From an uncultured Clostridia bacterium (lineage in GTDB: Bacteria; Bacillota; Clostridia; UBA1381): a stretch of DNA of 64,000 bases. Where the stretch lies: assembly GCA_944393255.1 (NCBI GenBank), contig CALXZP010000040.1, positions 1 through 64,000 on the forward strand, read 5' to 3'. A program made the position numbers and the translations under genes. Below are positions 56,602 to 63,673 of this stretch, piece by piece. Each line of letters begins with the position of its first letter. Within the stretch, counting starts at the first letter, position 1. The notes under the pieces were generated by a model. That model made no database searches and was not told the DNA's origin. It saw nothing but the letters and a program-made list of their open reading frames with translations.

Positions 56602-56886
56602 CGCGGACACTGCGATAATGCATCATATAAAAGGAACGGACATGTCCGCGCGCGGCGGTATGAAGGCCGTTTCTTTTTTTGTACGGAATAACTGCATTAG
56701 TACGATTTAACTGAATTTTATATAATTTTCTCTGTTTTTCTTGTTGTTGAATTGTGTAAAATACTATATAATAAATATATAGTATAGATGGTTTTAGGTT
56801 ATTTTGACGAGCTGTAAAATAAAATAACATCAAATTTTTAAAAAATGTTGCTAAAATCTATATACAAATCCAATTATTTGTGTTAT
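56602..56886. other. intergenic AT-rich region
   Basis: A short hairpin-like CGGACATGTCCG palindrome near 56637-56650 and a TTTTTTTG run (56674-56681) may terminate tam. The rest is AT-rich with no gene. Confidence 0.4.
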
Positions 56887-56889
56887 AAT
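56861..56889 (+). promoter_or_regulatory. possible promoter before the 103-nt repeats
   Basis: TATACA (56861-56866), 17 bp, TATAAT (56884-56889). Its -10 overlaps the first linker of the repeat array. Confidence 0.5.
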
Positions 56890-56894
56890 AAATA

Positions 56895-57142
56895 CAGTTA
56901 ATGAAGCAAAGCCGTCAGACGGCTTTGCCTTGGAATGTATTTATTGCGACGGAGTGAAGCAATGCTAAACGCATTGCACGTATGTCATAAATAAACACAG
57001 TTAATGAAGCAAAGCCGCCTGGCAGCTTTGCCTCGGAATGTATTTATTGCGACGGAGTGAAGCAATGCTGAACGCATTGCACGTATGTCATAAATAAATA
57101 CAGTTAATGAAGCAAAGCCGTCTGACGGTTTTGCCTCGGAAT
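56895..57142 (+). repeat. tandem 103-nt repeats with paired hairpins
   Basis: Two full units (56895-56997, 56998-57100) and a partial third (57101-57142), spaced exactly 103 nt. Each full unit has hairpin A (GCAAAGCCGTC/GACGGCTTTGC; 56906-56928 in unit 1) and hairpin B (GCAATGC/GCATTGC; 56959-56977), joined by the linkers AATAAATACA and TGTATTTATT, which are mutually complementary. Across copies hairpin A shows one paired change (T-A to C-G), one G-T wobble and one mismatch. The array ends 25 nt before the acyltransferase start codon and is therefore in its leader. Confidence 0.9.
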
Positions 57143-57167: not shown

Positions 57168-58553
57168 ATGGCGGTGAAATATTATCCTCTTGCAGCGGCG
57201 CAGGCCACACAGCATGACCTTGCAAAGGAGTTTGGGACGTCTCAGGTCATAAATGTATGTACCTGTTCTACATTGCAGACGGAGATCGACTTCGATCTGC
57301 TCAAAAAATGTATCCAAGAGGAATTCAAGCGGTATGAATGTCTGAGGATACGGTTTACCAAGCCGGATAAAAACGGCGACGTTATGCAGTATATCGTGCC
57401 GAGGGACACCCGGGATATAGAGCTTGTGGATTTCAGCGGATCGGATGAAAGAGCTGTTGAAAGAAAGCTCAACGAATGGTCGTTCGAGCCGTTTTCCGAG
57501 CCGGACGCGCCGATGGCTGAGATAAAAATGATAAAGATGCCGGACGGATATCAAGGGCTGTATCTCAAGATAGACCACCGCCTTGCCGATTCGAGCGCGG
57601 TGATCGTTATGATCAATGATATAATGGAGCTGTACTGCCACTACCGTTTCGGTTCGCCGTATCCTAAGCCGCTGCCGTCTTATACAGAGGCGCTCGAAAA
57701 GGATCTGGAAAGGCAGAATTCGGCAAAAAAGACCGAGCGTGACAGTGAATTTTGGGACAAGGTCCTGGATATGGGAGAGCCGCTTTATTCGGATGTCACG
57801 GGAACCTGGAAGCTTGAGGAGACGAGAAAGGAGCATAACGATCCGAGCATCAGATGGGCGGACAGAGAGATAAAGGATACGCGCGTGAATTTCGCGGTGT
57901 TCGACCTTGAGCCTGAGCCGTCTATGCGCCTTTTGGAATATTGCCTTAACAACAATGTTTCCATGACCAATCTTCTGCTCATGGGACTGCGGACGTATCT
58001 GTCAAAGATGAACAACGGACAGACGGATATAAGCATAAGAAACTTCGTTTCGCGGCGTTCGACAAAGCTTGAGCGGTTCAGCGGCGGCAGCAGGACGCAG
58101 TGGTTTCCTTGCAGAACGGTGATAGAGCCGGATACGGAGTTCCTCGACGGCATATATATAATCCAGGATTTCCAGAACCAGGTCTATCGTCATTCTAACT
58201 ATGACCAGGCCGCACTTGCGAAAAAGTTTGCCGAGAAATTCGGACAGCCGCCGCATACAACGTATGAGGGGATGCTGCTGACATACCAGCCGCTTCCGGT
58301 GCGTCTGCAAAACCCGAATTTGAAGGGCATACCGTTCAAGTCGAGGTGGCTCAGCAACGGAACGGGCGTGCAGAAGCTTTACCTCACTGTAATGCACCGT
58401 CCGGATACGGGACTGCAGTTCTTTTTCAAGTATCAGGAGGCGGAGCTTTCCCGTGACGATGTCGAGAAGGTATATTATTATCTGATGAGGATAATCTTTA
58501 TGGGCGTTGAACATCCGGATCTCACGGTCGGGGATATAATAAAGATGGTCTAA
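57168..58553 (+). CDS. stand-alone condensation-domain-like acyltransferase
   Basis: A 461-residue protein with the chloramphenicol-acetyltransferase-like fold of NRPS condensation domains and WS/DGAT-type acyltransferases. The active-site motif HHxxxDG appears as D136-H137-RLA-D141-S, so the catalytic second His and the structural Asp are kept while the first His and final Gly differ. The N-terminus (YYPLAAAQ) is typical of condensation domains. It would transfer an acyl or aminoacyl group to an amine or alcohol. A carrier protein and an AMP ligase encoded downstream should supply the activated group. GGAGGGATCAGC precedes the ATG. Confidence 0.75.
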   Translation: MAVKYYPLAAAQATQHDLAKEFGTSQVINVCTCSTLQTEIDFDLLKKCIQEEFKRYECLRIRFTKPDKNGDVMQYIVPRDTRDIELVDFSGSDERAVERKLNEWSFEPFSEPDAPMAEIKMIKMPDGYQGLYLKIDHRLADSSAVIVMINDIMELYCHYRFGSPYPKPLPSYTEALEKDLERQNSAKKTERDSEFWDKVLDMGEPLYSDVTGTWKLEETRKEHNDPSIRWADREIKDTRVNFAVFDLEPEPSMRLLEYCLNNNVSMTNLLLMGLRTYLSKMNNGQTDISIRNFVSRRSTKLERFSGGSRTQWFPCRTVIEPDTEFLDGIYIIQDFQNQVYRHSNYDQAALAKKFAEKFGQPPHTTYEGMLLTYQPLPVRLQNPNLKGIPFKSRWLSNGTGVQKLYLTVMHRPDTGLQFFFKYQEAELSRDDVEKVYYYLMRIIFMGVEHPDLTVGDIIKMV

Positions 58554-58628
58554 GGGGCAAGAGATTTGCCTGAATAGCAATACCTGACGGCCGTGCCGCC
58601 GGGAAAACAAATCAAGGAGGAATAAAAA

Positions 58629-58862
58629 ATGCTGGAGGATCTTAAGGAGAAGCTTGGGGAGTATGTGGACACGCCTATCGATGAGATAACGGCTGATACA
58701 AGGTTTATTGAGGATCTTGGTTTGAACTCATTTGAGTTCATGTCGCTGCTCGGGTATCTTGAGGAGGAATACGACATAGTTGTAGATGAAAACGAGGTGC
58801 GCGGACTGAGAACGGTGGGCGAGGCTGTCGAGTATATCGAAAAGCTGACGAATGAAGCGTGA
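58629..58862 (+). CDS. acyl/peptidyl carrier protein
   Basis: A 77-residue four-helix carrier protein. The phosphopantetheine-attachment Ser is S34 in LGLNSFEFMSLL, and FEDL-type and EEEYDI helices match acyl or peptidyl carriers. It should hold a thioester-linked acyl or aminoacyl group loaded by the ligase encoded next. It lies 75 bp after the condensation-like gene and 20 bp before the ligase gene. It is not the fatty-acid AcpP context, as no fab genes are near. CAAGGAGG precedes the ATG. Confidence 0.88.
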   Translation: MLEDLKEKLGEYVDTPIDEITADTRFIEDLGLNSFEFMSLLGYLEEEYDIVVDENEVRGLRTVGEAVEYIEKLTNEA

Positions 58863-58882
58863 GCGCAGAGAAGGAGGTCAAT

Positions 58883-60394
58883 ATGGCGTTAAACACTATA
58901 AGGGATATAGTAGTGAACTGTGCGCAGTCTTACAGCGATATGACGGCGTTCAGATATATCAAGGGCAAGGAGCTTGAGGACAAGACGTATTCGGAGCTGA
59001 AAGCGGAGAGCGAGGCTGTGAGCCGTATGCTCGATAAGTTCGGGCTTGTAGGCAAGCATATCGCGCTTATAGGCGCGAGCAGCTATGAGTGGATAGTGAG
59101 CTATCTCGGCGTGGTCGACAGCGGCAGCGTTGCCGTTCCGCTCGACGCGGCGCTTCCGCCGTCGGAGCTGTACGAGCTGATAAACAGAGCTGACGTTTCC
59201 GCAGTCGTATATGATAAGACGCAGAAAGCGATGGCGGAGGGAGTTGCCGAAAACTGCCCCGAGGTCAAGTACATGATAGCCATGCAGGACAGCGCAGTCC
59301 TGGACGGCGGATATCTGCTGCCGGAGCTTATTGAGGAATGCATGGGCAGCTATGAAACGGAAATAGATCCCGATAAGATGTGTACACTGATGTATACGTC
59401 GGGAACCACGGGAAAGAGCAAGGGCGTTATGCTTTCGCACCGGAACCTTGCGCAGAATGTTGAAAACTGCGTAGTATTTATAGATCCGGGCAAGGTATCC
59501 ATGTCAGTTCTGCCTATACACCATTCATTTTGCCTGACTGCCGGTATATTAAAGAGCATGTCTCTGGGCAGCTGTATCTGTATAAACGATACCATGATGC
59601 ATTTTGCAAGAAATCTGCAGAGGTTCAAGCCTGAGATAATGCTTCTCGTTCCGCTTATAATCGAGACTATATACAGTCAGCTCAGGGATGTGGATCCTAA
59701 CATACCGAAGCGGATGGTAGCGCAGAAGGTATTCGGTGAAAATCTCAAGATAATATTCAGCGGCGGAGCTTACCTGAATCCCGACCTTGTGGACTTCTTT
59801 GAGGAATACGGCGTAAGCGTGCTGCAGGGCTACGGTATGACGGAATGCTCGCCTGTTATAAGCAACAATAATCAGGTCAATGCAAAGACAGGCTCGATAG
59901 GAAAGCCGCTTGCAAACTGCGAGGTCAAGTTTGTTGACGAGGAGATATGCGTTAAGGGCTCAAGCGTTATGCTCGGCTACTATAAGATGCCGAAGGAGAC
60001 GGCGGAGGCTCTCGACGAGGACGGCTGGCTCCACACCGGCGATCTCGGCCGCATGGATGAGGACGGCTTCCTGTACATAACGGGAAGAAAGAAGAACCTG
60101 ATAATCCTGTCAAACGGCGAGAATATATCGCCTGAGGAGCTTGAAAACGTTATAGGCAAGCATGATCTTGTAAAGGAAGTGCTTGTGCGTGAGAGCGGAC
60201 AGAATATCGAGGCGGAGATATTCCCGGATGCGGAATATGCCGAGGCTCACGGCGTTACTGACGTGAACAAGAGCTTACAGGATATTATTGATGATTTCAA
60301 CAAGGATATGCCGCTTTATAAGCGCATAACATCTTTGAAGGTCAGAGATACCGAGTTTGAAAAGAGTACGACAAAGAAGATAAAGCGATTTTAA
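58883..60394 (+). CDS. AMP-forming acyl/aminoacyl ligase (adenylation enzyme)
   Basis: A 503-residue enzyme of the ANL superfamily. Core motifs are in order: YTSGTTGKSKGVMLSHRN (phosphate loop), MTECSPVI, WLHTGDLG, RKKNLIILSNGENISPEE, and the C-terminal catalytic Lys in TTKKIKRF. It should activate a carboxylic acid (fatty, aryl or amino) as adenylate and load it on the adjacent carrier protein. Without structure, fatty-acid versus amino-acid specificity cannot be decided. ATG 58883 with AAGGAGGTC is preferred over the in-frame GTG at 58859. A terminator follows. Confidence 0.9.
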   Translation: MALNTIRDIVVNCAQSYSDMTAFRYIKGKELEDKTYSELKAESEAVSRMLDKFGLVGKHIALIGASSYEWIVSYLGVVDSGSVAVPLDAALPPSELYELINRADVSAVVYDKTQKAMAEGVAENCPEVKYMIAMQDSAVLDGGYLLPELIEECMGSYETEIDPDKMCTLMYTSGTTGKSKGVMLSHRNLAQNVENCVVFIDPGKVSMSVLPIHHSFCLTAGILKSMSLGSCICINDTMMHFARNLQRFKPEIMLLVPLIIETIYSQLRDVDPNIPKRMVAQKVFGENLKIIFSGGAYLNPDLVDFFEEYGVSVLQGYGMTECSPVISNNNQVNAKTGSIGKPLANCEVKFVDEEICVKGSSVMLGYYKMPKETAEALDEDGWLHTGDLGRMDEDGFLYITGRKKNLIILSNGENISPEELENVIGKHDLVKEVLVRESGQNIEAEIFPDAEYAEAHGVTDVNKSLQDIIDDFNKDMPLYKRITSLKVRDTEFEKSTTKKIKRF

Positions 60395-60400
60395 AAATGA

Positions 60401-60450
60401 AAAGCGGCAGTTCAAACCCTTCGGCGGGCGTTGAGTCTGCCGCTTTTTAT
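60401..60450 (+). terminator. terminator of the condensation/carrier/ligase operon
   Basis: AAAAGCGGCAG pairs with CTGCCGCTTTTT. Confidence 0.85.
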
Positions 60451-60577
60451 TTGCGGATAAAAGCATTATCGGACGGGCCTGAGCTGTATCGGACAGGACG
60501 GCATGACCGGAAGCTTTCAGGCTTTGCTTCAAAAGAGCCTGACGGAGCGCTGAGCCGATAGAAACGCAGGGAAAGGG

Positions 60578-61174
60578 ATGATAAAGATAAATATTGGATA
60601 TGCGCGGGTGTCAACGATAAATCAGAATGAGGACAGGCAGATCCTTGAGCTGCTCGCTTTCGGGGTACTGCAGAAAAATATATATACGGATAAGCAGAGC
60701 GGCAGGGATTTTAACAGACCCGAATATATGCGGATGCTGCGCCGTCTGAAAAGGAACGATCTGCTCGTCATAAAAAGCATCGACCGTCTCGGACGCAATT
60801 ACACGGAGATACTAAACGAATGGAAGCTTATAACTGAAAAGAAAGGCGCTGATATAGTTGTTCTGGATATGCCGCTTTTGAACACGGCAAAAAGCAAGGA
60901 TCTGCTCGGAACGTTCATATCGGATCTTGTGCTGCAGCTTTTATCGTTTGTGGCGGAAAATGAGAGGACGAGTATAAGACAGCGGCAGGCGGAAGGGATA
61001 GCCGCGGCAAGACTGCGCGGCGTAAAATTCGGCAGACCGCCAAAGCCTGTCCCGGAAAACTTCGAGGAAAACTACCGGTTATGGAAGAATAAAAAAATAT
61101 CGGCGCAGCAGGGCGCCGACAACTGCGGGCTGCCGCTCTGGGCATTCTATAAATTTGCGCGCAGGCATGATTGA
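60578..61174 (+). CDS. serine recombinase (resolvase/invertase family)
   Basis: A 198-residue recombinase. The catalytic Ser is S12 in GYARVSTINQNEDRQ; Arg residues of the active site are in KSIDRLGRNYTEI and ERTSIRQRQAEGI; the long E-helix and a C-terminal helix-turn-helix (KKISAQQGADNCGLPLWAFYKFARR) complete the small-invertase architecture (Hin/Gin-like length). It cuts and religates both DNA strands at short sites, giving inversion or resolution. Its stop lies 12 bp from an inverted-repeat-bounded segment with a promoter, the likely target. GGAAAGGG precedes the ATG. Confidence 0.92.
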   Translation: MIKINIGYARVSTINQNEDRQILELLAFGVLQKNIYTDKQSGRDFNRPEYMRMLRRLKRNDLLVIKSIDRLGRNYTEILNEWKLITEKKGADIVVLDMPLLNTAKSKDLLGTFISDLVLQLLSFVAENERTSIRQRQAEGIAAARLRGVKFGRPPKPVPENFEENYRLWKNKKISAQQGADNCGLPLWAFYKFARRHD

Positions 61175-61939: not shown

Positions 61940-63673
61940 ATGAGAAAAATACACTTTTATAAAAAAATAGCTTGCATAGCGGCAAGTATGTCGCTTTTGT
62001 TTTCAATGATTAATTATACTGTATTATCGGCTGATAAGAATAATGCCGTAAAATATGATATCGGTACAACGTTAAATGCAGCTATTACTGAGGATTCTCC
62101 GGAGATTTATTACATTTTTGAGCTTGAAGAATCGGGAGTGGTAGAAGCTGCTTTGAACCTAGGTACATGGGAAGGCTATTCGTATGAGTTATATGATAAT
62201 TATGGTAACAGACTATATAGAGAATATGTTCAGAAGCATACGGGTGATCTTACTTGGGATTTGAGCAGCGGGACATATTATTTGCTCTTTTCTGCAAATA
62301 ACAATTACGGCACATTTTCTCTCACGACGTCTTTTGAAAGCGCAAATGTAAATCATGATGAAGATAACGCAATAAAGAACAATGCGGCAGAGATCAGTCT
62401 GAATAAGAAATACAATAGCATAATATCTAAGAATAAGTCTGAGGAATATTTTAAATTTAAACTGGATGAATCAGGTATAGTGAATGCAACTATAGATTTA
62501 GGTACATGGGAAGGCTATTCATATGAGCTATATGATAATTATGGTAACAGGCTATATAGAGAATATGTTCAGAAGCATACGGGTGATCTTACTTGGAATT
62601 TGAGCAGCGGGACATATTATTTGCTCTTTTCTGCAAATAACAATTACGGCACATTTTCTCTCACGACGTCTTTTGAAAGTGCAAATGTAAATCATGATGA
62701 AGATAACACAATAAAGAACAATGCGGCAAAAATCAATTTAAATGAGAAATACAATAGTATAATATCAGCGGATAAACCTGACGAATATTTTCAATTTGAG
62801 CTTAAAGAATCAGGAGCAGTAGAAGTAACAATAAATTTGGGAACATGGAGTGGCTATTCGTATGAGCTATATGATAATTATGGCAACAGACTATATAGAG
62901 AATATGTTCAGAAGCATATGGGTGATCTTACTTGGGATTTGAGTGGTGGAACATATTATTTGCTCTTTTCTGCAAATAACAATTACGGCACATTTTCATT
63001 TACTTTATCCGATGGAGGATACACAGCCAATACGGATAAAAACAATACATTTGAACCTGTGAAGACTCCGCAGCCTGAAAATAATAATGACGATGATGAT
63101 GACTATATACCGATAACAACACCTGCTCCCGACACAAATAATGATATATACGTAGTTGCGTACAACGATGTTAACATAAGCGATGACTTTTTTACTGCTG
63201 TAACAGAATTGTCGTATAGAGGAATAGTAAATGGGTATGAAGATGGTTTATTTAAGCCGTATAATAATCTTACAAGAGCAGAGTTTACAAAGCTGATCGT
63301 TACATTATTAGGTAAAGAAAGTGAGGCTAATGCGAAAAAGGGCTACAGCAGCTTCTCAGATGTTGGAAGAAGTCATTGGGCATTAGGATATATTAATATA
63401 GGGGTTGAAGACGGCATTATAAATGGTTATGGGCTTGGTTATTTTGGACCGGAGGATAATGTAACATATTCACAGGCAGTAAAAATGCTCGTTTCAGCTG
63501 CCGGTTATGAACCTGATGCGATGAAAAGCGGCGGATGGCCCTTAGGATATATGGCTACCGGCAGTGTGATTGGCATCACTGAAGATATGCCAATATATAT
63601 GAATAATGATGATCTGCTTTCCAGAGGAGAAGCGGCGATTCTGATGTATAATACATTGAATATAATTGAGTAA
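61940..63673 (+). CDS. SLH surface protein with three 113-aa repeats
   Basis: A 577-residue exported protein: signal peptide (1-30), three consecutive 113-residue beta-sandwich repeats resembling PPC (pre-peptidase C-terminal) domains (about 50-355; key motif LGTWEGYSYELYDNYGN), a short Asn/Asp/Pro linker (about 370-395), and three SLH modules (about 405-575, with GLFKPYNNLTRAEF, GYFGPEDNVTYSQA). The SLH part anchors it to the wall; the repeats face out and may bind carbohydrate or protein. Repeat copies 1 and 2 are almost identical in DNA. The start ATG has GAAAGGAAC upstream at a somewhat long distance. It is downstream of the candidate promoter switch. Confidence 0.87.
   Translation: MRKIHFYKKIACIAASMSLLFSMINYTVLSADKNNAVKYDIGTTLNAAITEDSPEIYYIFELEESGVVEAALNLGTWEGYSYELYDNYGNRLYREYVQKHTGDLTWDLSSGTYYLLFSANNNYGTFSLTTSFESANVNHDEDNAIKNNAAEISLNKKYNSIISKNKSEEYFKFKLDESGIVNATIDLGTWEGYSYELYDNYGNRLYREYVQKHTGDLTWNLSSGTYYLLFSANNNYGTFSLTTSFESANVNHDEDNTIKNNAAKINLNEKYNSIISADKPDEYFQFELKESGAVEVTINLGTWSGYSYELYDNYGNRLYREYVQKHMGDLTWDLSGGTYYLLFSANNNYGTFSFTLSDGGYTANTDKNNTFEPVKTPQPENNNDDDDDYIPITTPAPDTNNDIYVVAYNDVNISDDFFTAVTELSYRGIVNGYEDGLFKPYNNLTRAEFTKLIVTLLGKESEANAKKGYSSFSDVGRSHWALGYINIGVEDGIINGYGLGYFGPEDNVTYSQAVKMLVSAAGYEPDAMKSGGWPLGYMATGSVIGITEDMPIYMNNDDLLSRGEAAILMYNTLNIIE
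62162..63000 (+). repeat. 339-bp tandem coding repeats
   Basis: Blocks starting GGTACATGGGAAGGCTATTC-like at 62162 and 62501, with a diverged copy at 62840, exactly 339 bp apart. Confidence 0.9.

Follow-up and report, generated by a model that had tools for sequence, protein, structure and literature searches.

A three-gene condensation-carrier-ligase operon from an uncultured Clostridia bacterium, very probably encoding a fatty acid amide synthase

The window analysed here, a stretch of 64,000 nucleotides from an uncultured Clostridia bacterium, carries three adjacent genes for a stand-alone condensation protein (C), an acyl carrier protein (T) and a fatty acid ligase (A), which, as judged from sequence, very probably form an operon for the synthesis of fatty acid amides (FAA), a type already described from gut Clostridia. 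This reading is based on gene content and gene order, on the motifs, the family and the clade to which the proteins belong, on the predicted fold and on the spread of the three genes as a cassette. Such a three-gene set has been named CTA operon, the T gene having invariably been found in the middle (PMC13060934). In the proposed mechanism A would activate a free fatty acid, probably derived from the gut, as acyl adenylate and would load the acyl chain onto the phosphopantetheine arm of T, from which C would hand it to a freely diffusing small amine in a transfer that also releases the product. Because the free amine would release the acyl chain, no thioesterase should be needed. The first-pass annotation of this DNA had described a discrete C-T-A set that could make an N-acyl conjugate without thioesterase or reductase, which was right in outline, the absence of these genes being normal for operons of this kind.

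The products of FAA operons are lipid signals for host receptors, GPR119 among them, and they may shield the bacterium from free fatty acids. The kind of operon and the class of product are known, whereas we regard as new the lineage of the host, the behaviour of the three genes as a cassette and a candidate residue for recognition of the acceptor. A survey of CTA operons in human-gut isolates with a 70% identity cut found them in Lachnospiraceae only (PMC13060934), and the copy in the window extends the known range beyond the isolates of that survey. In neither PMC13142362 nor PMC13060934 did we find a description of an FAA operon in the lineage of the window.

Layout of the operon

In the list of open reading frames of the window the three genes follow each other on the plus strand in the order C (57168–58553; 461 amino acids; Pfam Condensation, 1.5e-37), T (58629–58862; 77 amino acids; Pfam PP-binding, 1.3e-10) and A (58883–60394; 503 amino acids; ANL superfamily). 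Open reading frames and Pfam domains thus agree with the first-pass annotation on the place and the adjacency of the genes. Its assignment of the third gene to the ANL ligases also stands (Pfam AMP-binding, 1.3e-71), but the start of that gene had to be moved: it is most likely ATG 58883 rather than GTG 58859, eight codons inside the GTG frame, since a Shine-Dalgarno-like GAAGGAGG precedes the ATG at proper distance and since the close relatives start at the same position. Indeed, the ligases of L002, L003, L005 and L006 align from the same beginning, MAL(N/D)TI (e.g., MALNTIRDI).

The operon is closed by an intrinsic terminator (60398–60452, plus strand), as had been claimed before, consisting of a hairpin (60398–60449) and a T-rich tail. 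The hairpin has a predicted stability of −28.2 kcal/mol (z = −5.35), and 0 of 200 shuffled sequences were as stable.

Relationship to OaaC and the question of the acceptor

Among solved structures the best sequence match to the C protein is PDB 12KH ("Condensation Domain Protein"), with residues 3–460 matched (E = 1.7e-177) at 55.9% identity in a comparison by sequence only; the second best is found at 3e-6. The entry 12KH is OaaC of Coprococcus eutactus, a free-standing protein that takes a fatty acid from a carrier and couples it to aminovaleric acid or γ-aminobutyric acid (GABA) in free form; with purified OaaA, OaaACP and OaaC the formation of fatty acid amides was shown by LC-MS, and the product of the Oaa cluster is oleoyl aminovaleric acid (PMC13142362). 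Both sets consist of three stand-alone proteins, and the active-site motifs, DHRLMDS in OaaC and DHRLADS in the window C protein, are both of the form DHRLxDS. The two C proteins differ in 44% of their residues, and the host of the window set is of the genus of Candidatus Ornithomonoglobus merdipullorum (G001 is this member of the genus) rather than Coprococcus. The first-pass annotation had called the product unknown, a view that hung on there being no close similarity of the three genes to a characterised cluster with a known product. With OaaC at 56% identity, and with a three-gene cluster around it that makes oleoyl aminovaleric acid, such a similarity is largely what was found, and the phrase "unknown product" goes too far.

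In a quick tree of the C proteins, for which support is SH-aLRT support only, the FAA-type C proteins are separated from the NRPS condensation domains of the class with a support of 100, and the window protein together with its close relatives in L002, L003, L004, L006 and L015 (77–95% identity) joins OaaC and the C protein of L038 in a clade that also has a support of 100. The ligase tree returns the same close group, with the ligase of L085, the partner of L038, again adjoining. Thirty-five positions are invariant in the eight members of the OaaC clade; of the 32 remaining FAA-type C proteins, no more than 15% have the same residue at any of them. The most informative of these clade-specific residues is Arg138 (Arg140 of OaaC in the numbering of this analysis), which directly follows the catalytic His137: it is present in 8/8 clade members and in 0/32 of the others, which have Met, Ala, Leu or Cys at this position in the different subclades. 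With its positive charge it might bind the carboxylate group of aminovalerate or GABA.

Since the C protein groups with OaaC and has the clade-specific Arg138 in common with it, we lean, if only slightly, towards an ω-amino acid (5-aminovalerate or GABA) as the acceptor, the product then being, e.g., an N-acyl aminovaleric acid; it should be noted that only a single characterised protein, OaaC, stands behind this assignment, and that at 56% identity acceptor specificity can shift. Somewhat short of an even chance has to be given to the alternative that the operon is an FAA operon with dopamine, tyramine, tryptamine, phenylethylamine or ethanolamine as acceptor, which rivals only the acceptor part of our reading. 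Other FAA clusters reportedly use such neurotransmitter-like amines (the work of Chang et al. in 2021), and an identity of 56% to OaaC leaves the acceptor specificity unfixed. Amines of this type are used by other FAA/CTA clusters, and the CTA operon has been tied to acyl amine production in culture, Blautia forming acyl ethanolamines and acyl dopamines (PMC13060934). Against these acceptors speaks that the window protein and OaaC lie in one clade of maximal support with residues, Arg138 included, that only this clade has.

Where the acceptor might come from was looked at in the genome. The glutamate/aromatic decarboxylase family (PF00282) has no match in it, the control matching in eight genomes, and GABA or aromatic amines of that route would therefore come from outside. 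Searches for the D-proline reductase families gave no match in this genome, nor in any control genome.

Preferring an ω-amino acid as acceptor, we also put forward a wider proposal, tentatively and in the knowledge that it may well prove wrong: the DHR clade would be a distinct ω-amino-acid branch of the FAA synthases, Arg138 would read the carboxylate, and bird-gut Clostridia outside the reported lineages would make N-acyl aminovaleric acid or N-acyl GABA signals. Arg138 would then be a simple sequence rule, at present a candidate, for separating ω-amino-acid acceptors from other amine acceptors.

It is very unlikely that the set makes an N-acyl α-amino acid, a lipid conjugate or a modified polymer, products that the first-pass annotation had offered and that C-T-A chemistry would allow, sequence alone not fixing the acceptor. 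FAA C proteins select specific amines and exclude proteogenic and non-proteogenic amino acids (PMC13142362), no genes of polymer or lipid biosynthesis adjoin the operon in the window, and none of the eight neighbouring genes that were sought has stayed next to the operon in L002–L006; the modified polymer and the lipid conjugate are left without support.

Compared with the CTA operon known from Lachnospiraceae such as Blautia wexlerae, the operon of the window is alike in its C-T-A order and in being a short three-gene operon of gut Clostridia, but it is found in another clostridial lineage, whose named kin come from chicken. For Blautia it has been shown that free oleic acid is toxic and that its amides are not (PMC13060934). 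By analogy, the role of the window operon may be to lower the toxicity of free fatty acids, to act on host receptors, or both; both roles have been reported for relatives.

Active sites and predicted folds

The active-site stretch of the C protein, YLKIDHRLADS, contains Asp136, His137 and Asp141 (DHRLADS, residues 136–142, i.e., D136-H137-R138-L-A-D141-S142). The first-pass annotation had correctly seen that His137 and Asp141 are kept and that Asp136 stands in place of the first His, but had taken the replacement for an oddity. In the family motif of FAA-type C proteins, (D/H)HxxxDS, in which the residue after the second Asp is mostly Ser or Ala, Asp is a normal first residue (PMC13142362), and it is in this form, (D/H)HxxxDS/A, that the motif is present in the window.

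An AlphaFold2 model of the C protein (pLDDT 91.6) predicts a helix at residues 214–222, which is the site of the insertion helix Gln214–His224 of OaaC. The top structural match in a fold search is the starter domain RzmA of rhizomide synthetase (7C1L; Z = 39.7; 2.6 Å over 420 residues), which agrees with the placing of FAA C domains beside starter domains in PMC13142362. Like the donor envisaged for the window protein, the donor of RzmA is a fatty acyl group. RzmA differs in being part of a modular NRPS, in using acyl-CoA and a carrier-bound amino acid, and in sharing only 16% identity with the window protein. That the C protein is itself a modular NRPS condensation domain was rejected: it is a stand-alone frame of 461 amino acids, and the NRPS condensation domains of the class are only 20–24% identical to it in the alignment.

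The carrier protein had been described as intact, and it is: the phosphopantetheine site, Ser34, lies in the sequence DLGLNS and is invariant across 17 aligned carriers. A member of the phosphopantetheinyl transferase family is encoded in the genome. In the ligase the motifs SGTTG, GYGMTE and TGD and the C-terminal Lys are conserved among relatives. Structure prediction, on which the first-pass annotation had set hopes for the ligase pocket, yielded a standard ANL ligase fold (pLDDT 86.5) with many CoA ligases at Z scores of 44 to 49, but no substrate. The reason for this is that the nearest solved enzymes (4-coumarate, anthranilate, malonate, benzoate and fatty acid ligases) have 18–28% identity and nearly tied scores, from which it cannot be told which fatty acid is used.

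That the operon is a decayed or inactive copy, the replacement of the first His of HHxxxDG by Asp marking a loss of function, can practically be dismissed, because Asp is usual in the clade, the active OaaC included, because none of the three frames is broken and all are conserved in relatives (the C proteins at the 77–95% identity given above), and because the catalytic residues are invariant in all three proteins.

Distribution and cassette behaviour

The C protein of the window has matches in 32 of 70 genomes of its family, belonging to 9 of 17 genera, a few of the matches being NRPS domains or fragments. In 391 genomes drawn evenly from the class, stand-alone relatives were found in several other families, and matches with approximately 26% identity or less were nearly all multidomain NRPS frames. 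Among 299 genomes sampled from the phylum there was, at 1e-40, no match except the window's own. C, T and A occur together and in the same order in 17 of 17 distinct long loci (L005 begins inside C), so that a search for the same three-gene set elsewhere, as the first-pass annotation had proposed, finds it in many Clostridia.

The C protein of Candidatus Roslinia caecavium (G319), which belongs to another family of the class, is 81% identical to that of the window, whereas those of six genomes of another genus in the same family as G319 are only about 39% identical; for several species that share the genus of the window the figure is only about 36%. Eight neighbouring genes of the window were sought beside the operon in L002–L006 (of which L002 and L005 are short), and none was found; conserved neighbours as a hint to the product were therefore dropped. 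The agreement of the C and A trees and the difference in flanking genes indicate that the three genes behave as one cassette, and the distribution of identities across genera and families together with the lack of shared neighbours suggests that they move horizontally as a unit between clostridial families.

A second clade of FAA-type C proteins (L010–L013 and L018–L030) is found in the same genus and family, with about 36% identity to the window protein and a motif that is mostly HHxxMDA. Related species thus seem to use different FAA synthases and perhaps different amines.

Upstream region and flanking genes

A possible promoter, TATACA-17-TATAAT with a TG before the second hexamer (56861–56889, plus strand), matches the consensus at 10 of 12 positions; the match is weak, promoter-like sequences being no more numerous in the region than in shuffles. 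This promoter match is followed, ahead of the C gene, by 2.5 copies, head to tail, of a structured repeat 103 bp long (56887–57142, plus strand). Structured repeats had been noticed there already and counted among the peculiarities of the operon; they exist, but they are not special to it and are dispersed throughout the genome.

The 103-bp unit has 27 DNA match places in the genome. At the 20 loci that were read (L061–L080), units occur singly or as head-to-tail arrays of two or three, mostly between genes. When 19 units are aligned, three helices are supported, with 98.9% of the cells paired and with six pairs changed on both sides (25 such cells; shuffles gave 8.6 and slid controls no more than 3). 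A covariance model built for the unit gave 51 matches in this genome, approximately 36 of which are strong, most of the others being weak antisense shadows of these same units, as well as 28 matches in G010; within the family 13 of 70 genomes have matches, this genome being the richest. The model found none beside the operon in L002–L006, L094 or L085, and Rfam contains no match to the repeat even at E = 0.5. Being scattered over the genome and missing next to the operon in the six relatives for which upstream sequence exists, the repeats were rejected as a part of the operon. The repeat is a separate dispersed element that lies in the operon leader by chance. Either a structured RNA that is transcribed or a palindromic repeat that is mobile could account for it, and it is less well explained than the operon itself.

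Directly 3′ of the operon a serine recombinase is encoded (60578–61174; Pfam Resolvase, 1e-28), which does not adjoin the operon in the relatives L002–L006. Further downstream (61940–63673) follows a gene whose product is probably secreted and has three near-identical repeats, each of about 100 residues, and, after these, S-layer homology domains.
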